Assembly: GCA_027622005.1 (NCBI GenBank)
Contig: JAQBZH010000026.1
Coordinates: forward strand, 1-33,674
From: Bacteroidota bacterium
GTDB taxonomy: Bacteria > Bacteroidota > Rhodothermia > Rhodothermales > UBA10348
Direction: 5' to 3'
DNA: 33,674 nucleotides
Below are positions 640 through 15,635 of the stretch, piece after piece (the first letter of the stretch is position 1; each line of letters starts with the position of its first letter). The position numbers and the translations under genes are program-made. The notes under the pieces are model-generated. The model did not search any database. It was not told where the DNA came from and was given only the letters and a program-made list of their open reading frames with translations.

Positions 640-718
640 CGCCAGGGGCATCGTTTGGGAACCGCTACCTCCCAGAAGTTAGGGAGTTTTGTCATCCAGA
701 ATCAGAATTGGTGGAATT

Positions 719-2013
719 ATGTATTTCCGTTGTTCTCGTCCACGGGTCACGTGGCTGGGATTGTTGTTATTGATATTTTCGGGCTCCCTACCTGCAAACA
801 GCACACCCACTGGAGGATATTCGATCCCCTTTTTGCCAAAAACGACCCTAAGTGACACTTTAACTTTCGCGGTATCGCTAGAAAAAGTCCTTCAATACGA
901 TCCAGGAATTAGGGGCGCAAGCGCAAATCTCGACGCCGCATTGGCATACGAACGGGTGGCCTCTAAATTACCAGACCCACGATTAGAGCTGGAATCAGAG
1001 GATTTATCTTCCTCCGGTCCCGAAATTCCCATCTATACCTTCTCGTTGATTCAACTCATCGAGTTGGGTGGAAAGCGTGGTGCAAGGCGCGAAGTTGCCA
1101 CTAGAAAACACGCACTAGCTCAAATTGAAGCGGCTAGAACCCTTACCGATATTCGTTCGAAAGTACACATTCGCTATGCGGAGGCGGTTGCCAGGCAATC
1201 GAGTGCCAGGGCTTCACAAGCATCCCTAGAACTCGCACGGGCCACGGTAGAAGCCATCTCAGTTAAAGTCGATGTCGGGGAGCGCCCCTTCATTGACTTG
1301 GCTCGAGCACAAATTGCATTTGCAGACGCTACCATTGAGTACCGGCAAGCCGAGCTGGACAAAAACGCGGCCTTTTCCCATCTGGCCTCATTGTGGGGGT
1401 CGATTCCTGAGTTTTCTGTCGTTTCCGAAACGCAGCCGTTTCAAGAGGTGTTGGACCTTTCTTCCCTCCTAGAACTACTAAATTCTAGTGCGTTATCTCA
1501 ATCCTGGGAAGCTGAATTAGCCATTATCCGTTCGCAATTAGCGGTTGAAGCGTCCCAAAGAGTGCCGGACATTACCCTTTCGACCGGTCTTCGGAAGTAC
1601 GAAACTACTGGATCGAAAACGGCCGTAGTCAAATTGTCCCTCGCCATTCCCCTTTTTAACGGTAATCGAGCCCGAACGGCGGCCGCCCGGTTTCAAGTAT
1701 TTGGTGCAGAGGCCTATCGAGATGAAGTAAGTCAATTGGCCCGCATCCAGGTAATAGAAGCACATCGAAAAGCATCTTCAATAAACGTGGAAGTTGCCGT
1801 GCTGAAAGATGAAATCCTTCCGAAAGCCGAAACCGTGGCAGCCTTAATGAAAGAAGGTTATCAAGAAGGCAAGTTTTCGCTCCTTGAGTTGTTAGATGCT
1901 CAATATGTGCTGGCCCGTTCTAGGGCTCGTTTAGCCAATGCCATTCTGGAGTACCAAATTTCAACCGCTGAATTGGCCCGTCTAATTGAACCCGCAACCT
2001 TTTCAACAAATTA

Positions 2014-2014
<1 letters not shown>
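719..2014 (+). CDS. czcC: CzcC-like outer-membrane efflux protein (TolC family)
   Basis: This is the outer-membrane channel of a heavy-metal RND tripartite pump. The 431-residue product begins with a signal peptide (Arg-rich start, then a Leu-rich core ending near SLPANS). Two long alpha-helical, Ala/Glu-rich repeats follow, typical of the outer membrane efflux protein (OEP) family, including an LIQLIELGGKRGARRE segment characteristic of CzcC/CusC-type proteins. I chose ATG 719 because GGTGGA lies just upstream and the signal peptide starts there; a TTG at 689 would add ten polar residues. The stop overlaps the czcB start by one base (TAATG), so translation is probably coupled. The length is normal for the family. 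Assignment to Czc rather than Cus follows from the partner CzcA. Confidence 0.9.
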
Positions 2015-6739
<4,725 letters not shown>

Positions 6740-6774: not shown

Positions 6775-6803
6775 GGCGGGGTTGGGTTTTGCCCAACCCC
6801 GCC
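6775..6803. terminator. Bidirectional hairpin between czcA and kamA
   Basis: A perfect 12-bp stem, GGCGGGGTTGGG (6775-6786) with its complement (6792-6803), closes a TTTTG loop. It sits between two convergent genes, 35 bases after the czcA stop and 8 bases beyond the kamA stop, so it can serve both strands. No long T-run follows on either side. Its core is almost identical to the hairpin at 1-26, including the flanking GCCGC and CTTCC. Confidence 0.7.
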
Positions 6804-6811
6804 GCAACTTC

Positions 6812-7927
6812 CTACAAACGGGGTAGCACAACCGAACTTTCGCCGGGGAGAGGCGCATCGTTCATCTCCGTCCAAATCTCTCCTCTGGTAGACTTCATAA
6901 CCACACCTTCTGCATTTCGGCCCAGTACGTAGTCCCGCGTCAAGGGGACTTTGCCAAAGGGCGTGTCCAGAATGTATTTCGGGATCGCAAAACCAGTTAA
7001 ATGCCCTTGCAACTCGTGCATGATGTGCATGCCTACCTCAATCGGCGTTCGGAAGTGCACCGTACCGCCAATAAGTTGAGCCTGGTACAGGTAATATGGC
7101 CGGATGCGCATGTTCACAAGACCCCGGCAGAGTTCGCGCATCGTTTCGACTGAGTCATTGATCCCTTTGAGTAGCACGGTTTGATTGCCCACAGGCACAC
7201 CCGCCCTCAGCAACCGGTCTATGGCTGCGCCCGCTTCCGGGGTCAATTCTTTCGGGTGATTAAAATGCGTATTGAACCAAATCGGATGATGCCGTGAAAG
7301 CACTTCGCACAGCTCTGGGGTGATGCGCTGCGGTAGTTTTACCGGCATTCTGGACCCAATTCGGATGATATCGACGTGCCCAATGGCCCGAAGCTCGGTT
7401 AGCAGCCAATCGATGTTGGCGTCTCCGAGGGTTAGGGGATCTCCGCCGGTCAGCAAAACATCATTAATTTCTGGATGCGCGGCGATGTAAGCGATAGCCT
7501 CACGCAATTCCCCTTTTCGCATCATGAACTCGGCCTCACCCACCATCCGCTTCCGCAAGCAATACCGACAATAAATCGCGCACTGGCTTGTCACGCAAAA
7601 TGCCACGCGATCGGGGTAGTTGTGGATCAGGTTTTTCACGGGCGAATGGGCCACTTCTTCGAGTGGATCCTCCAATCCGACCACATCGGGCGCCAGTTCT
7701 TCCATCAATGGAACCACCTGTCGACGAATCGGGCAGGTGGGGTCGGCCCGGTCCATCAGGGACGCGTAATAAGGGGTGATGGACCACTGAAATACGTCCT
7801 TTGTCGCTTCAATAGCCGCCATTTCCTCCGCGGTAGGTTCGAAATAGTCCCTGAGGGCCTCCTCAGACTCAATCCGATGCCGCATGTGCCAACGCCAATC
7901 ATTCCACTGTTCGGGGGTGTATTTCAT
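6812..7927 (-). CDS. KamA-family radical SAM aminomutase
   Basis: This is a lysine-2,3-aminomutase-family enzyme: a radical S-adenosylmethionine, PLP-dependent protein that moves an alpha-amino group to the beta position. At 371 residues it is near the family norm. The iron-sulfur cluster motif CxxxCxxC is at C116, C120 and C123 and is followed by RKRM. The SAM-binding GGDP is at 161-164. The PLP lysine is K326 in the GKVPL context. In clostridial lysine 2,3-aminomutase two aspartates (D293 and D330) bind the substrate side chain. Here the aligned positions read Q284 (YQAQL) and D321 (ILDTP), so one of them is replaced. The characterised glutamate version uses Lys and Asn instead. The substrate may therefore be neither lysine nor glutamate; that is inference. 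The ATG overlaps the stop of the ATP-grasp gene by four bases (ATGA), so the two are co-translated. Confidence 0.88.
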   Translation of the reverse strand: MKYTPEQWNDWRWHMRHRIESEEALRDYFEPTAEEMAAIEATKDVFQWSITPYYASLMDRADPTCPIRRQVVPLMEELAPDVVGLEDPLEEVAHSPVKNLIHNYPDRVAFCVTSQCAIYCRYCLRKRMVGEAEFMMRKGELREAIAYIAAHPEINDVLLTGGDPLTLGDANIDWLLTELRAIGHVDIIRIGSRMPVKLPQRITPELCEVLSRHHPIWFNTHFNHPKELTPEAGAAIDRLLRAGVPVGNQTVLLKGINDSVETMRELCRGLVNMRIRPYYLYQAQLIGGTVHFRTPIEVGMHIMHELQGHLTGFAIPKYILDTPFGKVPLTRDYVLGRNAEGVVMKSTRGEIWTEMNDAPLPGESSVVLPRL

Positions 7928-8907
7928 GGTTTTACCCTCTCAATAGCTTCTCGCAACACCTGAGCCAAAAAATCAGGGTAAGACAGCCCCATTAGCTCGG
8001 CCATGATCGCAAACGTTCCGTCCGGGGCAAAAGTGGGGAGTGGATTGATCTCTAAAAACCACTCCCGCCCCTCGGCATCCACCCGAAAATCAACGCGCGC
8101 AAAATCACGGCACTCCAGCTTATGAAAAATCTTCAGAGCAGCTGCCTGCAAACGCGCTTCCAATTCGGGTGAAAGAACGCCTGGCAGTGCATACGAATGA
8201 TCTACAACGGGTAGTCCTTTACGGTCGAGCACGTGTAACCCGATGCCAGTCTCGGTCTCGACCGCGCGCTGGATGACCGGGAGGGTACGCGGCGGACGGT
8301 GGCCCACTACGGCTACGGTAAATTCGCTTCCCTCCACAAATTCCTCAACCAGCGCATCCTGTTTATAGATTTGGATGATTTCAGTCACCTGAGCGCGCAA
8401 ATCATCATCCGAAAACACTTTGCTCCTAGCCGTTAATCCCTTCGCAGACCCCTCATATCTCGGTTTCACGAACAAGGGAAACGTTTTCGGCGCTGTGGAA
8501 AGATCGATTTGATCACCAGAAAATACGGAATAGGCCGGAGTACGAAGCCCAGCCGCCACCGCGAGATCTTTGGTCCACGCTTTGTCTAAACTCAGCGAAA
8601 GAGTGAGCGCATCCGACCCTACAAAAGGCACCCCCATCATTTCCATTAGCGCCGGAGCTTCCCCTTCCCGGTTGCGCCCCCGTCCACCTTCGGCAATATT
8701 CAGACCTACATCAAAACCCGGATTATCCATGTGGGGCAACAAGTTACGGGCAGGTCCGATACGAACCGGCACGTGGCCCAATGCCCTTATGGCGGATTCA
8801 AGCGCCTGCACCGTTTCAACGGGTTCATTTTCGACATCCGCATCGAAAGGCTCCCCGGGAGTCCAGGGATAGTCTTCAAAAAGATCGTAAATCAATCCGA
8901 TGCGCAT
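7924..8907 (-). CDS. D-Ala-D-Ala-ligase-like ATP-grasp enzyme
   Basis: This is an ATP-grasp ligase related to D-alanine-D-alanine ligase, which forms an amide bond through an acyl-phosphate. The 327-residue product has an N-terminal domain (MRIGLIYDL, then LNIAEGGRGRNREGEAP at 69-85). The ATP-grasp core carries K148 in FVKP, VEEFVEGSEF at 187-196, and the metal-binding RVDF and EINPLP (286-291). Classical Ddl enzymes start with a GGxSxE motif and end in EVNTLPG. Here the first is absent and the last reads EINPLPTF, so this belongs to a paralogous group rather than the cell-wall enzyme. It is the first gene of a two-gene operon with the KamA-family gene. A plausible job is to ligate the beta-amino acid made by that enzyme; this is inference. 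Confidence 0.82.
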   Translation of the reverse strand: MRIGLIYDLFEDYPWTPGEPFDADVENEPVETVQALESAIRALGHVPVRIGPARNLLPHMDNPGFDVGLNIAEGGRGRNREGEAPALMEMMGVPFVGSDALTLSLSLDKAWTKDLAVAAGLRTPAYSVFSGDQIDLSTAPKTFPLFVKPRYEGSAKGLTARSKVFSDDDLRAQVTEIIQIYKQDALVEEFVEGSEFTVAVVGHRPPRTLPVIQRAVETETGIGLHVLDRKGLPVVDHSYALPGVLSPELEARLQAAALKIFHKLECRDFARVDFRVDAEGREWFLEINPLPTFAPDGTFAIMAELMGLSYPDFLAQVLREAIERVKP

Positions 8908-8966: not shown

Positions 8967-9033
8967 GGTTCTTTTTGTGCGAACCTTATATTCTCTCTAT
9001 CTACAATTCACCAACGCCATATATCCTCTCAAG

Positions 9034-9864
9034 ATGAAAAGGACCATCTCTTCCCCATTCCATAACATGACTTCCGTGTTTTTCATTTTTGGATATGTTT
9101 TGGCTGGCTGTACTTCCGTCGAAACCGAAGCTCCGTTCGCGCTGCCTTCCGGAACGCTGGTTGACATGTCTTACGCCTATAACGATAGTACGATTTATTG
9201 GCCTACAGCCCCGGGTTTCGTTAAAACAACCGATTTTGAAGGGACGACGGAAGCTGGATTTTACTATACAGCCTATTCCATTAGTACGGCTGAACATGGC
9301 GGGACCCACCTGGATTCTCCCGTTCATTTCTCCGAAGGGAAGCTTTCAGTTGACCAGATTCCACTAGATCGGTTGATGGGATCCGCAATTGTCATCGACG
9401 TTCAGGCCCAGGCGGCCGAAAATCGGGACTATTTGATTTCTAAGGATGATATTTTGCTGTGGGAATCTGAAAACGGATCTATTCCAGAGGGCGCGATCGT
9501 TCTGTTTCGCACGGGGTTTGGCCAATATTGGCCCGATCGAGAAACCTACATGGGGACTGCTGTGCTAGGCCCGGAAGGCGCCAAGCTGCTTCATTTTCCG
9601 GGAATTGACCCTGGTACAGCCGCGCTCTTAGCCACGGAGCGCACTATAAAAGCGGTTGGAATCGACACGCCGAGCATCGATTTCGGACAATCAAAACTTT
9701 TCGAAACCCATCAGACCCTGTTTGGCGCCAATATTCCGGCATTTGAAAACGTGGCAAATCTAGACCAGCTACCAATCACGGGCGCCATTGTAATTGCGTT
9801 ACCGATGAAAATCGAAGGGGGCAGCGGCGGCCCCCTCCGAATAGTCGCTATCATTCCCAACTAG
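9034..9864 (+). CDS. Exported cyclase/kynurenine-formamidase-family lipoprotein
   Basis: This belongs to the cyclase family (Pfam PF04199), metal-dependent hydrolases that include kynurenine formamidase and isatin hydrolase. The metal-binding signature HGGTHLDSPVHF is intact and is followed by the usual IPEGAIVLFRTGF, VGIDTPSID and a GGSGGPLR end. Before the domain is a lipoprotein signal ending in the lipobox LAGC, so the enzyme should sit on a membrane outside the cytoplasm. That is less common than the cytoplasmic tryptophan-pathway enzymes. ATG 9034 gives 276 residues with a Lys/Arg n-region. A GTG at 8977 adds 19 residues, and ATG 9067 gives the shortest signal. It is divergent from the ATP-grasp gene and convergent with cusA, 21 bases away. 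The substrate is unknown. Confidence 0.82.
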   Translation: MKRTISSPFHNMTSVFFIFGYVLAGCTSVETEAPFALPSGTLVDMSYAYNDSTIYWPTAPGFVKTTDFEGTTEAGFYYTAYSISTAEHGGTHLDSPVHFSEGKLSVDQIPLDRLMGSAIVIDVQAQAAENRDYLISKDDILLWESENGSIPEGAIVLFRTGFGQYWPDRETYMGTAVLGPEGAKLLHFPGIDPGTAALLATERTIKAVGIDTPSIDFGQSKLFETHQTLFGANIPAFENVANLDQLPITGAIVIALPMKIEGGSGGPLRIVAIIPN

Positions 9865-9885: not shown

Positions 9886-12800
9886 TCAAACTCGTCGCAT
9901 CTGCCTTTCCCTCCAGAGGTAATAAATGACGGGGATGACAATGAGTGTTAGAATGGTAGAGGAAACCATGCCCCCAATCATTGGGGCTGCAATACGCTGC
10001 ATCACTTCCGAGCCTGTGCCGTGCCCCCACATAATGGGCAATAGTCCGGCCATGATCGTGGCGACAGTCATCATTTTGGGACGCACGCGTTCGACAGCCC
10101 CATGGATAACAGCCGCGTAAAGGTCTTTTAATTCCGTCATTTCACCGCGCTTCAGCCCAGCTTTGTACGCGTGATCCAGATAAATGAGCATGATGACACC
10201 CGTTTCTGCGGCTACCCCGGCTAAGGCTATGAATCCGACGCCAACCGCGACGCTGAGGTTGTACTCCAACAAGTAAACGAGCCATATGCCACCAACAGCG
10301 GCAAATGGCACCGAAAGCATGACAATTAAGCTTTCTTGCGCATTTCTAAAATTCAAGTACAGCAGGGCAAAAATCAGTAGAAGGGTGAATGGAATGACCA
10401 GTTTGAGGCGATCCTTAGCGCGCTCCATATACTCGTATTGACCACTCCAAACGAGCGAATATCCGGCCGGGAGCTTCAAATTCTGCGTCACAACGTCCTT
10501 GGCGTTCGCTACATACGTTCCTATGTCAATATCCCGAATATCGACCAAAACCCAGGCTGTCCGGCGGGCATTTTCGCTCTTAATGACGGGTGGACCTTTC
10601 GTTATCTCCATTTTAGCCACATACCCGAGTGGAATTTGATTGCCACGCGGTGTCGAGATAAGGACCCTTTCAAGGTCCACCAAATTGTCCCTCGTTTCCC
10701 TTGAATACCGAACATTGACCGGATAGCGCTCCAGCCCTTCTACGGTCTGAGTCACGTTCATTCCGCCAATGGCCGACATGATCACATCCTGGACGTCTCC
10801 GACCGTGAGGCCATACCGAGCTGCTTCGAGACGGTCTATTTTCCAATCCAAAAAGTTGCCGTTTACGGGCTTGTCTGGAAATGCGCTCAGTGTACCCGGT
10901 ATATCGTCTAAAAGAACAGCTATATCTGATGTCAACCGAGATAATACTTCCAGATCTGGTCCCATGACCTTGATCCCGACCGGTGTTTTAATTCCGGTTG
11001 AAAGCATGTCAATCCGGGTTTTGATGGGCATAGTCCAGGCATTGACCAAGCCCGGAAATTGAACGGCATCATCCATTTCTTCGATCAACTTTTCAACCGT
11101 CATTCCCGGTCTCCAATCCTCCTCCGGACGCAGCATGATGGTTGTTTCCAACATTGAAAGAGGGGCAGGATCGGTAGCCGTGTTAGCTCTTCCAACTTTT
11201 CCGAGCACGTGGTGGACCTCCGGAAAAGACATGATGATCCGGTCCGTTTGCTGTACCAACTCCCGCGCCTTGGTGATGCTGATCCCCGGATCGGTCGTAG
11301 GCATATAAAGAATATCACCTTCATTGAGAGCCGGCATAAATTCCGATCCGAGCTTCGACAATGGCCAAAAAGTGACGAGCAAAACGACGGTTGCGAGCGC
11401 GATCGTCCACCATTTGAACCGCAAGGCCATCTGGATACAGGGGCGGTAAATCGCCTGAAAGATCCGGTTGACAGGATTTTTCTTTTCCGGAATGATCTTG
11501 CCCCGGATAAAATACCCCATGAGCACCGGTACGACGGTTATCGCTAGAATGGCAGCAGCCGCCATGGCGTAGGATTTTGTAAACGCTAGCGGCTTAAACA
11601 ACCGACCTTCCTGGGCCTCTAGCGTGAAAACCGGCAAAAACGACAGTGTTACGATCAAAAGGGAATAAAACAGGGCCGGCCCAACCTCCTTGGACGCATC
11701 AATCACAATCTGCCAGTGGTCTTTCTTACCTCCATCCACCTCGAGATGCTTGTGCATATTTTCGATCATCACGATGGCCGCATCTACCATGGCCCCAATA
11801 GCAATAGCAATACCTGCCAGGGACATAATATTAGCGCTCAATCCCTGCGCGTTCATCACGATAAACGCCATTAAAATGCCCATCGGGAGCGTAAAAACGG
11901 CCACAAAAGCACTGCGGAAGTGTAGTAAGAACAGCAAGACAATGAGGGTTACTACGATGATTTCCTCGAGCAACTTGTCCTTCAAATTGTCGATGGCCCG
12001 AGTGATCAGTGTCGACCGATCGTAAGCGGCTTTGATGGTAACTCCCTCCGGCAGCCCGGCTTGCAGCTGTTCTAGCTTTTGTTTAACTCCTTCGATCGTG
12101 GCCAGCGCATTGGCCCCGTAGCGCATCACGACGACGCCTCCGACCGCCTCGCCCTCCCCGTTCCATTCAACCAATCCACGCCTGAGTTCGGGCCCGAGGT
12201 GCACGTTGGCCACGTTACTTATTAAAATGGGCGTCCCGTTTTTATCAACCCCAATCGAAGTGTTTTCGATGTCCTCGATCGATTTGATATACCCTAGCCC
12301 CCGAACCATGAATTCGGTTTCACCCATCTCAACGAGCCGGCCGCCAACGTCTGCGTTGGACCTCATGAGCGCCTGCCGAACCTGATTCAGAGGAATATCA
12401 TAAGCGAGCAGCCGATTGGGATCGACTTCTACTTGATATTGCTTTACATAGCCCCCAATAGACGCTACCTCGGCCACACCCGGAACACTGGTCAATTCGT
12501 ACCGCAAAAACCAGTCTTGAATGGAACGCAGCTGCTGTAGGTCGTATTTGTCCCCGCCGTCCAAAACATATTCATATACCCACCCGACCCCCGTCGCGTC
12601 CGGACCAAGAGAAGGGGTGATTCCTGCAGGCATCCGTCCGGAGGCAAAATTCAGGTATTCCAGTACCCGACTTCGGGCCCAATACATGTCGGTTCCTTCT
12701 TCAAAAATGATGTAGACGAAAGAAAGACCGAACATAGAATACCCCCGAACCGTCTTGGCAAACGGAACCGAGAGCATGGCTGTCGTTAGGGGATAAGTGA

Positions 12801-12993
12801 CCTGATCCTCCACGACCTGCGGAGCTTGGCCGGGATATTCAGTAAAAATAATAACCTGAACATCGGACAGGTCAGGGATGGCGTCGACGGAGGTGTTGAG
12901 AATCGCGTACCAACCCGTCACGGCCGTTATCGCGGCCAATACCAGAACCATAATCCTGTTTTTGACCGAAAATTCGATAATTTTTTCTAACAT
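9886..12993 (-). CDS. cusA: CusA-like Cu(I)/Ag(I) RND efflux pump
   Basis: This is an inner-membrane pump of the HME-RND family that exports monovalent copper and silver. At 1035 residues it is the size of E. coli CusA. The N-terminal signature DAIPDLSDVQVIIFTEYPGQ is CusA-type. The three methionines that bind Cu(I)/Ag(I) are all present as M564 (LYMPTT), M614 (PLSMLETT) and M663 (IDMLSTGIK). Each is exactly nine residues before the E. coli positions 573, 623 and 672. D404 in AMVDAAIVMIEN matches the proton-relay Asp405 of E. coli. It starts four bases after the cusB stop and is the last gene of the operon. Confidence 0.95.
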   Translation of the reverse strand: MLEKIIEFSVKNRIMVLVLAAITAVTGWYAILNTSVDAIPDLSDVQVIIFTEYPGQAPQVVEDQVTYPLTTAMLSVPFAKTVRGYSMFGLSFVYIIFEEGTDMYWARSRVLEYLNFASGRMPAGITPSLGPDATGVGWVYEYVLDGGDKYDLQQLRSIQDWFLRYELTSVPGVAEVASIGGYVKQYQVEVDPNRLLAYDIPLNQVRQALMRSNADVGGRLVEMGETEFMVRGLGYIKSIEDIENTSIGVDKNGTPILISNVANVHLGPELRRGLVEWNGEGEAVGGVVVMRYGANALATIEGVKQKLEQLQAGLPEGVTIKAAYDRSTLITRAIDNLKDKLLEEIIVVTLIVLLFLLHFRSAFVAVFTLPMGILMAFIVMNAQGLSANIMSLAGIAIAIGAMVDAAIVMIENMHKHLEVDGGKKDHWQIVIDASKEVGPALFYSLLIVTLSFLPVFTLEAQEGRLFKPLAFTKSYAMAAAAILAITVVPVLMGYFIRGKIIPEKKNPVNRIFQAIYRPCIQMALRFKWWTIALATVVLLVTFWPLSKLGSEFMPALNEGDILYMPTTDPGISITKARELVQQTDRIIMSFPEVHHVLGKVGRANTATDPAPLSMLETTIMLRPEEDWRPGMTVEKLIEEMDDAVQFPGLVNAWTMPIKTRIDMLSTGIKTPVGIKVMGPDLEVLSRLTSDIAVLLDDIPGTLSAFPDKPVNGNFLDWKIDRLEAARYGLTVGDVQDVIMSAIGGMNVTQTVEGLERYPVNVRYSRETRDNLVDLERVLISTPRGNQIPLGYVAKMEITKGPPVIKSENARRTAWVLVDIRDIDIGTYVANAKDVVTQNLKLPAGYSLVWSGQYEYMERAKDRLKLVIPFTLLLIFALLYLNFRNAQESLIVMLSVPFAAVGGIWLVYLLEYNLSVAVGVGFIALAGVAAETGVIMLIYLDHAYKAGLKRGEMTELKDLYAAVIHGAVERVRPKMMTVATIMAGLLPIMWGHGTGSEVMQRIAAPMIGGMVSSTILTLIVIPVIYYLWRERQMRRV

Positions 12994-12997
12994 GCGG

Positions 12998-14281
12998 CTA
13001 CTCGGAAATCGATTTGTGGTTCGTCATTTTTTGGATTGCTTCCTGCAACCGGCTTTCTGAGTCGATCAAGAATTGTGCGGAAGTCACCACCGTTTCACCG
13101 TCTTCCAAACCCCTTAAGATGTGAGTGAGACCATTTTCCGGCCCTCCTTCACCCCCCACTTCCACCTCCCGGGGTTCGAAGGATCCATTTTCGCTCGATA
13201 CAAAAACCAACGTTCGAGCCCCAGAGCGAATAATGGCCTCAGACGGCACCACGACCACATTTTTCAGTGTTTTTCCAGCAAGATGCACATTGGCAAACAT
13301 CCCCGGCTTCAATTCACGGCTCTCATTTGACACGACAATGCGGACGTGGACGTCCCGAGCTTGCTCTCGAAGCATCGGATAGATGTACGAAATAACCCCT
13401 TTATACACCTTTCCGGGCAGATAACTGAGTTCCACTTCTACGGTCTGCCCCAAATTGATCCAAGGCAACTCATAGTCGTAAAAACTGGCATGCACCCACA
13501 CCTGCTCCAGGTTGGCAATTTTATACAGGTTGGCGCCCTTATCGGCAAAACCACCCTCAACGGCGTCTTTTTGCAAAACGATGCCTGACACGGGTGATGT
13601 CACGGTTACCCTCTCCTGAACCTTTCGAGTGTGCCCTAAATGTTCTATAAATTCGGGTGACATTTCCCAATTCAACAGCCGCTTTTTAGTCGCCTCGACC
13701 ACCCTTTTAGCACCGGACGAAATGCTTTCACTTGATCCTTCTGGAAGCGAGTCCAGGTAGGCCATTGACCGAACGAACTCCTCTTGTGTAGACACCAACT
13801 CGGGGGAATAGATGTCGTAGAGGGGGTCTCCTTTTTTGACCGGGGCCCCTTCAAATCCGACGTAGAGTTGGTTAATCCATCCGGAAATGCGCGCATTCAC
13901 CAAGACAATGCGTTCTTCGTTGACCTTGACTTCACCAACAGTCCGAATAGAGCGAAACAGGTCCATTCGATGGACCTTCCCGTACCGGACGCCCATCTGT
14001 TGGGAGACCACGTCGCTGACCATGACACTGCCAGCCGACCGCTGGACTTTTTCTTCCTCATACACGGGAATTAAGTCCATCCCCATACTCGATTTACCAG
14101 GTGCGTCATAAATTTCTGTTGGAACCATTGGATCCCACCAATACAGAATTTTTGCTTCGGCCACCTCCGGCTCAGCGGATGCTTCATCCGCCGACCACAG
14201 ACCTGAGCGGCCCAACCAGAAGCCACCAACGGTCGTCACCAGAATCAATGCGACCAAATAAACATATTGAAAACGTTTCAT
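12998..14281 (-). CDS. cusB: CusB-like periplasmic adaptor with Met-rich metal site
   Basis: This is the membrane-fusion protein of the Cu/Ag pump. It has 427 residues from ATG 14281, chosen because a good GAGGAAG Shine-Dalgarno lies 7-8 bases upstream; a longer reading from 14311 would begin inside cusC. One N-terminal membrane anchor (about residues 6-23) is followed by the CusB-type N-terminal metal domain, YWWDPM (M52) then KSSMGMDLIP (M66, M68). These match the Cu(I)-binding methionines of E. coli CusB. The lipoyl, coiled-coil and beta-barrel domains follow (RISGWINQLYVGFEGAPVKK, then SPVSGIVLQKDAVEGG). It lies between cusC (13 bases upstream) and cusA (4 bases downstream). Confidence 0.94.
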   Translation of the reverse strand: MKRFQYVYLVALILVTTVGGFWLGRSGLWSADEASAEPEVAEAKILYWWDPMVPTEIYDAPGKSSMGMDLIPVYEEEKVQRSAGSVMVSDVVSQQMGVRYGKVHRMDLFRSIRTVGEVKVNEERIVLVNARISGWINQLYVGFEGAPVKKGDPLYDIYSPELVSTQEEFVRSMAYLDSLPEGSSESISSGAKRVVEATKKRLLNWEMSPEFIEHLGHTRKVQERVTVTSPVSGIVLQKDAVEGGFADKGANLYKIANLEQVWVHASFYDYELPWINLGQTVEVELSYLPGKVYKGVISYIYPMLREQARDVHVRIVVSNESRELKPGMFANVHLAGKTLKNVVVVPSEAIIRSGARTLVFVSSENGSFEPREVEVGGEGGPENGLTHILRGLEDGETVVTSAQFLIDSESRLQEAIQKMTNHKSISE

Positions 14282-14287
14282 GATGAT

Positions 14288-14294
14288 CTTCCTC
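14288..14294 (-). promoter_or_regulatory. Shine-Dalgarno of cusB
   Basis: On the minus strand GAGGAAG lies six bases before the cusB ATG and directly after the cusC stop. It is one of the few strong ribosome binding sites in the window and fixes the cusB start at 14281. Confidence 0.6.
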
Positions 14295-15635
14295 TTAAAA
14301 TAGTTCGGCAACTTGCCTGTTTAGATGGCCGGAAACACGATCCAGCATGAGTTGCCCAGCGCGTAACCGAGCAGCTATTTCTATTCGTTCGTTTTCAAGC
14401 TGAAAACCAGTGCGTTCTGCGTCTAATAGATCTAGAAAATCGCCTTTCCCGTTTGAATAAGAGGAAACCGAGGTTTCCAGAAGAGCGAGAACGGACGGTA
14501 ACAAAGACTTATCGATATGGTCAATTGACTTTTGGTCAAAATCTGTTTTGGCTTCGAGTTCATCATAAAGGGCCTGAATGGACTGTTTGGTAGACTCGAT
14601 TTGCTCTTCGATTGCCTGTCGTTGCAATTGAGACTCTTGTCTTTTTGATCGATTAGCTGATTGTGCGAGAGGAATCTTGACGGAAATCCCCACACCCAGT
14701 GCGTCGCGACCGTCAGAGGAAGCCGGTATGTCCGATTTTGCAATCATAAGCCAGTTTAGGCTAACTCCGAAGTCAGGTCGATTATAAAAGTCGATAAGCT
14801 TGGTTTGAGTGCCGTTTAGTTCGATAGATTGGGCTAATACTTGAAGCTCACTCCGGCTTGCTAAATCCAAGGAAGGAGTTTCATCTCGAAGACCAAATTG
14901 TTCGGTTTGTAGAATTCGAACGGGCTGTTGAACCCATCGCTCGATTACCAGACGGTTAGCCTGAATGGTTCGGTCAAAATCGAGGAGGGATTGTTCCAGC
15001 CTAGCGCGTTCCAATTGAATCTTGAGGATCGACTGTTGGCTTCCTTCACCGACTTCATACTTTCGAAGAGCCAGTTTTTCGTACCCGTCCAGCCTTTCCT
15101 CAAATGAATAGATCACCTCGCGTCTAGCTTCAGCCCTTCTAACGTCATTAAGCGCCAGTTGCGCCTCCAAAATGGCCCCCACAGCGGCGGTTTGAACATT
15201 CGTGTAACCCATTTCCGAATCTAGGCGGGCCATTTCCCTCATCAAAGATTGCTTCCCGGGATAAGGAATCATTTGCTCAACACGTAGGCCGAGAATCTGC
15301 TTACCTCTTGCAGTATAGACAGGTAACGGCTGTCCCGTTAGCATGACTATTGGATCTGGATATGCCCCAACGTACCCGGTTCTTTCCGAAACAGCGTCTG
15401 CGGCCGTCTCCAAAGAATGAATAGTCTTGTTCGACTCTATAACGAGTCGAATTAGGTCGGAGGCGAACGTAACGTCAACTGTATCAGCTGCAACCCTTTG
15501 CGAGCTTTGATCGCTTGGCCTCTCTGCTGAAATTGGAGATGTTTTATTCCCTAGGGCAGGGCCTGACGAAATAGAAAAGAAGAATAGATTAAGCGCGATC
15601 CAAACGGGAGTGCGATACTTTCGGAGAAAAGGCAT
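14295..15635 (-). CDS. cusC: CusC-like outer-membrane efflux protein (TolC family)
   Basis: This is the outer-membrane channel of the Cu/Ag pump. The 446-residue product has a signal peptide (RKYRTPVWIALNLFFFS, cleavage near the GPALG area). A mature part with two OEP-type helical repeats follows, including GLRVEQMIPYPGKQSLM in the first and GISVKIPLAQSANRSKRQESQLQ in the second. The second pattern, GYxxGKGDFLDLLDAER, is typical of CusC/CzcC proteins (here SYSNGKGDFLDLLDAER). About 160 bases separate it from the small secreted protein upstream, more than the other gaps in the operon, so it may also have its own promoter. I see no clear Shine-Dalgarno. Confidence 0.88.
   Translation of the reverse strand: MPFLRKYRTPVWIALNLFFFSISSGPALGNKTSPISAERPSDQSSQRVAADTVDVTFASDLIRLVIESNKTIHSLETAADAVSERTGYVGAYPDPIVMLTGQPLPVYTARGKQILGLRVEQMIPYPGKQSLMREMARLDSEMGYTNVQTAAVGAILEAQLALNDVRRAEARREVIYSFEERLDGYEKLALRKYEVGEGSQQSILKIQLERARLEQSLLDFDRTIQANRLVIERWVQQPVRILQTEQFGLRDETPSLDLASRSELQVLAQSIELNGTQTKLIDFYNRPDFGVSLNWLMIAKSDIPASSDGRDALGVGISVKIPLAQSANRSKRQESQLQRQAIEEQIESTKQSIQALYDELEAKTDFDQKSIDHIDKSLLPSVLALLETSVSSYSNGKGDFLDLLDAERTGFQLENERIEIAARLRAGQLMLDRVSGHLNRQVAELF

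Follow-up and report, generated by a model that had tools for sequence, protein, structure and literature searches.

The window considered here, a stretch of 33,674 nucleotides on contig JAQBZH010000026.1 of a bacterium of the class Rhodothermia (Bacteroidota), contains a compact unit of two genes, a Ddl-like ATP-grasp carboxylate-amine ligase followed by a KamA-family radical SAM aminomutase (Table 1). Both reading frames are open and complete, and the junction, read directly as ...GGGTAAAACCATGAAATAC, contains the four bases ATGA that are common to both genes, just as the first-pass annotation of this DNA had described. That description, including a two-gene unit enclosed by convergent and divergent neighbours, is accurate except for the order of the genes, since transcription runs from the ligase into KamA. 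The convergent neighbour downstream of KamA is a CusA-type RND pump gene that ends at position 6739, and the divergent one is a PF04199 gene of a kind often conserved beside the pair.

Table 1. Features of the ligase-KamA unit and its immediate surroundings
Feature	Position	Strand	Details
Ddl-like ATP-grasp carboxylate-amine ligase gene	7924..8907	minus	327 aa, ATG to TGA; first in unit
KamA-family radical SAM, PLP-type amino acid 2,3-aminomutase gene	6812..7927	minus	371 aa, ATG to TAG; second in unit
ATGA stop/start overlap, ligase-KamA junction	7924..7927	minus	read from sequence
Hairpin GGCGGGGTTGGG-CAAAA-CCCAACCCCGCC, 3' of the KamA stop, between convergent genes	6775..6803		read from sequence
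Short divergent intergenic region, presumed promoter of the pair	8908..8976		gene layout, sequence
PF04199 (Cyclase / arylformamidase-like) gene, divergent	8977..9864	plus	PF04199 E 6e-39

The hairpin beyond KamA, with its perfect 12-bp stem, is the probable transcription end of the pair; it is missing from the terminator scan because it has no T tail. At the other end, a promoter scan of the presumed promoter region returned no sigma-70-like match. The PF04199 protein begins with a lipoprotein-type N-terminus containing a lipobox-like LAGC, and a PF04199 gene from one cluster lies beside the pair in 16 of 60 stretches from the class, some of which repeat a genome. It is a conserved neighbour whose membership in the pathway is unproven, and possibly one that is co-regulated with the pair while acting in another compartment. 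In six loci from other families of the class (L079, L081, L083, L085, L089 and L113), a probable GntR-type regulator, named from sequence, stands divergent from the ligase and is a candidate pathway regulator. Genes of two CusA/CzcA heavy-metal RND efflux systems, which differ from each other and are oppositely oriented, flank the pair (689-6739 and 9886-15635). Apart from these lineage-specific neighbours (PF04199 and the probable GntR-type regulator), no third conserved gene was found across the compared loci; neither an exporter, nor a resistance or immunity gene, nor a third biosynthetic gene is conserved alongside the pair there, and the loci therefore offer no independent hint to the product. 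A reading as a defence system was dropped, PADLOC having given no match.

Relationship of the two proteins to known families

The family names given in the first-pass annotation, KamA and Ddl-like ATP-grasp, are borne out by profile searches. The ligase scores 106.6 bits against PF07478 (gathering score 24; E 1.6e-30), which places it within the ATP-grasp Ddl-type fold, and its predicted model aligns with the Ddl structure 8evv over 293 residues (Z 27.0, rmsd 2.9); the closest solved structures are Ddl or Van ligases throughout. Common to the two enzymes, besides the fold, is the ATP/Mg site, the residues D273, E286, N288, R271, K148 and K109 being invariant across the ligase alignment. Where the ligase differs from Ddl is in its substrate-recognition residues and in its clade. 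Against the Ddl model TIGR01205 it reaches 138.9 bits, below the curated cut-off of 245.65; KY has become K230-G231 and HSL has become DGT, and the N-terminal EVS motif, the omega-loop aromatic and the serine that holds the second D-Ala have all been replaced. We take E15, Y216 and S281 of Ddl to be the residues that bind D-Ala, and the ligase has no equivalents of them. In the ligase tree, the window clade splits from Ddl with support of 100/100. Could the ligase nevertheless be the only Ddl of the cell, an outcome that the first-pass annotation had named as fatal to its own reading? This is rejected, because a separate, true Ddl is encoded on another contig of the genome (C28; 268 bits against TIGR01205, above the cut-off) and because the D-Ala residues are replaced.

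The KamA-family protein exceeds the cut-off of the family profile TIGR00238 (340.6 versus 199.2 bits) but falls below those of the profiles for lysine 2,3-aminomutase (AblA, TIGR03820; 440.9 versus 525.4), arginine 2,3-aminomutase (BlsG, TIGR04468; 452.7 versus 600), glutamate 2,3-aminomutase (TIGR04368; 438.2 versus 650) and EpmB (TIGR03821; 250.2 versus 369.3). Because the arginine, lysine and glutamate scores lie within 15 bits of one another, the profiles assign no substrate. The predicted fold aligns with lysine 2,3-aminomutase 2a5h over 327 residues (Z 34.6, rmsd 2.6, 41% identity), and the alignment equates the CxxxCxxC cysteines C116, C120 and C123 with C125, C129 and C132, the PLP lysine K326 with K337, D321 with Asp330, and R125 with R134, which presumably binds the substrate carboxylate. 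The epsilon-ammonium of lysine is, we assume, gripped by Asp293 together with Asp330. Only the second of these is kept in the window protein; Gln284 stands in place of Asp293 in every KamA protein of the clade whose sequence extends over this position, whether it is encoded near the ligase or far from it. With one lysine-gripping Asp turned into an invariant Gln, the substrate would be unlike that of known KamA enzymes. In nearly all members of the clade Arg112 has become Asn, and Thr133 is replaced by Leu; relative to lysine 2,3-aminomutase, the R112-to-N and D293-to-Q changes could mean that activity is lost or changed. The cysteines 268, 375, 377 and 380 of lysine 2,3-aminomutase, which we take to bind Zn, are not matched either, the position of C268 being occupied by Ser, Asp or another residue and the short C-terminus containing no Cys. 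A tree of 73 KamA proteins recovers the window clade as one group (support 100/99), and a profile of the clade, run over 394 genomes of the phylum, scores at least 563 bits inside the class and at most 439 outside it. By these sequence measures the window protein belongs to a new KamA clade, which probably has a new substrate specificity; the two clades and the residue changes are direct observations, as are the genes themselves and the co-inheritance described below.

The homology of this KamA to EpmB brings to mind the beta-lysylation of EF-P, in which a KamA homologue is likewise followed by an attaching enzyme, and one may ask whether the ATP-grasp enzyme attaches KamA's beta-amino acid to the lysine of EF-P in place of the EpmB/EpmA system. 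The EF-P of the genome carries a PGKG lysine loop, and EpmA, a LysRS paralogue unlike the ATP-grasp partner seen here, was not found in the genome, the best match to TIGR00462 (244.9 bits, cut-off 286.9) being a full-length lysyl-tRNA synthetase. On the other hand, the loop lysine is identical in the EF-P of class genomes without the pair, the EpmB score is well short of its cut-off, neither the window nor any compared locus showed linkage to efp, and the known ATP-grasp enzymes of the Ddl type act on free amino acids. We therefore regard a role in EF-P modification as quite improbable.

Co-inheritance within the class and related loci beyond it

How firmly are the two genes tied to each other? 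Profiles for the ligase family (A1) and for the KamA clade (A2) were applied to 195 genomes of the window's class, 73 of which carry the ligase family, 75 the KamA clade and 70 both (Fisher p 8e-43, a value that ignores shared descent). Forty-three of the 70 pairs are adjacent (within 300 bases), with the ligase preceding KamA every time, and a further 14 lie within 5 kb. In the remaining 13 genomes, distributed over six families (f3, f6, f9, f10, f15 and f19), the genes are unlinked yet both retained, in four cases on one contig at distances of 108 to 615 kb, and all unlinked KamA copies examined bear the same residue signature. KamA occurs without the ligase in five genomes and the ligase without KamA in three; some of these are incomplete, but one (G020) is 99% complete. 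A set of 19 related contigs carrying the ligase at 52-79% identity agrees with this picture: KamA follows directly in 16 of them and within 3 kb in two (the record titles read Rhodothermales, Rhodothermaceae, Rhodothermia, Rhodothermus, Bacteroidetes, Bacteroidota or plain bacterium). The gene-neighbourhood search that the first-pass annotation had proposed thus finds the adjacency to be widespread, and its concern that the pair might be unique to this genome has proved unfounded. A stronger point, independent of the Fisher p, is the arrangement of the 70 pairs, and retention of both genes when unlinked very probably means that they are steps of one process. In one genome (G180, contig C138) the pair is present twice, inverted and with identical scores, which could be an assembly palindrome.

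This shared inheritance bears on two explanations that would separate the genes. The first, suggested by the exclusively Ddl and Van character of the nearest solved structures, would have the ligase serve peptidoglycan as a second D-Ala-D-X ligase, with KamA an unrelated passenger. It must contend with the true Ddl elsewhere in the genome, the replaced D-Ala motifs, the fully supported split between the clades and the co-inheritance of the ligase with KamA even when unlinked, and is hardly credible. The second starts from the fact that in some anaerobes lysine fermentation begins with KamA, and would have it feed lysine degradation while the ligase belongs to some other pathway. It too is very hard to sustain, given the tight pairing with the ligase and the lack of catabolic neighbours; the alpha subunit of lysine 5,6-aminomutase also had no match in the genome, a weak argument because the control had none either.

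Pairings of a similar kind occur in other lineages. Among sampled genomes of other Bacteroidota classes, 51 contain both a related ligase and KamA, and in 42 of these the two are linked within 4 kb, on the same strand every time. Usually two ligase genes come first (ligase 1 and ligase 2), followed by the gene of a 159-aa acetyltransferase, judged GNAT-like by its sequence and without an NCBIfam match, and then by KamA (L121, L122, L123, L128-L133 and L135-L138). Such operons, of which no description was found, resemble the window pair in that related Ddl-like ligases, scoring below the cut-offs of the Ddl models, stand co-oriented beside KamA; they differ in having two ligases and an acetyltransferase, and a KamA that retains both lysine-binding Asp residues. 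A simpler arrangement is found in G466, where a single related ligase, the nearest outgroup to the window ligase clade (support 97/81), adjoins a KamA that passes the cut-off for lysine 2,3-aminomutase (558.7 versus 525.4).

Outside Bacteroidota, the distribution is known here through plasmid records only. A plasmid of Thioflavicoccus mobilis (L062:2656-8137) encodes a diaminobutyrate transaminase, SbnA, an SbnB-like protein, a related ATP-grasp enzyme and KamA, with the ATP-grasp gene situated between the diaminopropionate cassette and KamA; to judge from its gene content, the cluster likely makes a peptide of diaminopropionate and a beta-amino acid. On two rhizobial plasmids (L065:6965-9424 and L066:5493-8101), KamA adjoins an ATP-grasp-like gene whose annotation reads biotin carboxylase subunit; this KamA is of another type, with Cys for Asp330, and its partner is of another ATP-grasp-like type.

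A possible two-step route to a beta-amino-acid amide

The first-pass annotation had proposed that a beta-amino acid is made and then ligated. The coupling of the two genes is strongly supported, both by their co-inheritance, unlinked cases included, and by the KamA/ATP-grasp neighbours of other lineages, whereas the chemistry, that is the substrates, the product, the direction of coupling and the physiological role, is what we infer. KamA, relying on a [4Fe-4S] cluster, S-adenosylmethionine and PLP, would shift the amino group from the alpha carbon of a free L-amino acid to C3 and so yield a beta-amino acid, as its family and its kept catalytic residues suggest. The ligase, judging by its fold and its kept ATP/Mg residues, would convert a carboxylate into an acyl phosphate and then join it to an amine, and the product would be an amide or a dipeptide containing the beta-amino acid. 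We assign a probability of about 0.6 to the pair being a dedicated two-step pathway in which a beta-amino acid is made and then amide-joined to a second small molecule.

Logic of this kind has precedents. In the blasticidin S cluster (a Kitasatospora record), as in the window, a KamA-family enzyme, BlsG, which makes a beta-amino acid, and an ATP-dependent carboxylate-amine ligase, so named by its annotation, are found together; this ligase is presumably the enzyme that couples BlsG's product to a second moiety. The residue pattern is reversed, however, for BlsG keeps Asp293 and has Thr at the Asp330 site, and blasticidin S is made by an antibiotic cluster with a transporter and many genes, in contrast to the two-gene unit of the window. 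The negamycin cluster of Kitasatospora purpeofusca likewise unites beta-lysine formation with an ATP-grasp gene (PMC12154649), but it also contains a hydrazine-forming heme enzyme, none of which was seen near the window pair. The pair would be a variant of a known "KamA plus amide ligase" logic, one that is at work in the making of blasticidin S and, it appears, of negamycin. The first-pass annotation knew of no description of the pair, and in the open-access literature, a coverage that leaves out most subscription journals, we too found no paper that describes it or that joins a 3-aminomutase with an ATP-grasp enzyme, nor any assay of an enzyme from either clade; its suggestion of novelty is tempered, though, by the similar logic of these two antibiotics.

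What, then, might the product be? Very likely the two genes together make an undescribed small molecule, and this is more likely to be cytosolic than to be a protein modification or a part of the cell wall; the conserved gene content, which includes neither an exporter nor immunity genes nor a third enzyme, points to a simple cytosolic molecule derived from common metabolites. An osmolyte or another core metabolite is a plausible candidate. The osmolyte alternative, taken specifically, would be a special case of the beta-amino-acid and ligation pathway. Saline or thermal settings are the source of some carriers (their titles include a Rhodothermus sp. and GSL.Bin MAGs, GSL in our reading being Great Salt Lake), beta-amino acids act as osmolytes in other organisms (PMC1224877), no exporter is conserved beside the pair, and the related operons include a GNAT gene. 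A parallel would be AblA/AblB, also a two-gene unit with a KamA-family enzyme, which produces the osmolyte N-epsilon-acetyl-beta-lysine; its partner is an acetyltransferase, however, and that of the window an ATP-grasp ligase. As the first-pass annotation had noted for the locus, this acetyltransferase is absent: a profile search for AblB (TIGR03827) drew a blank across the whole, 97.5% complete genome while its controls matched. The solutes named for Rhodothermus marinus, moreover, are mannosyl compounds (PMC1224877). An osmolyte role in particular thus strikes us as rather unlikely.

Returning to the two-step pathway in its broader form, we suggest, tentatively and at somewhat less than even odds, that a hitherto undescribed dipeptide or amide of a beta-amino acid is formed by this KamA subfamily together with an ATP-grasp partner dedicated to it, that this compound is among the core metabolites of the class, and that the pair is a reduced cousin of the ligase-ligase-acetyltransferase-KamA pathway of other Bacteroidota classes. 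If this is true, a beta-amino-acid pathway would form part of the ordinary metabolism of the class, outside antibiotic clusters; a new KamA specificity would be there to be worked out; and many Bacteroidota genes that resemble D-alanine-D-alanine ligase would be something else.
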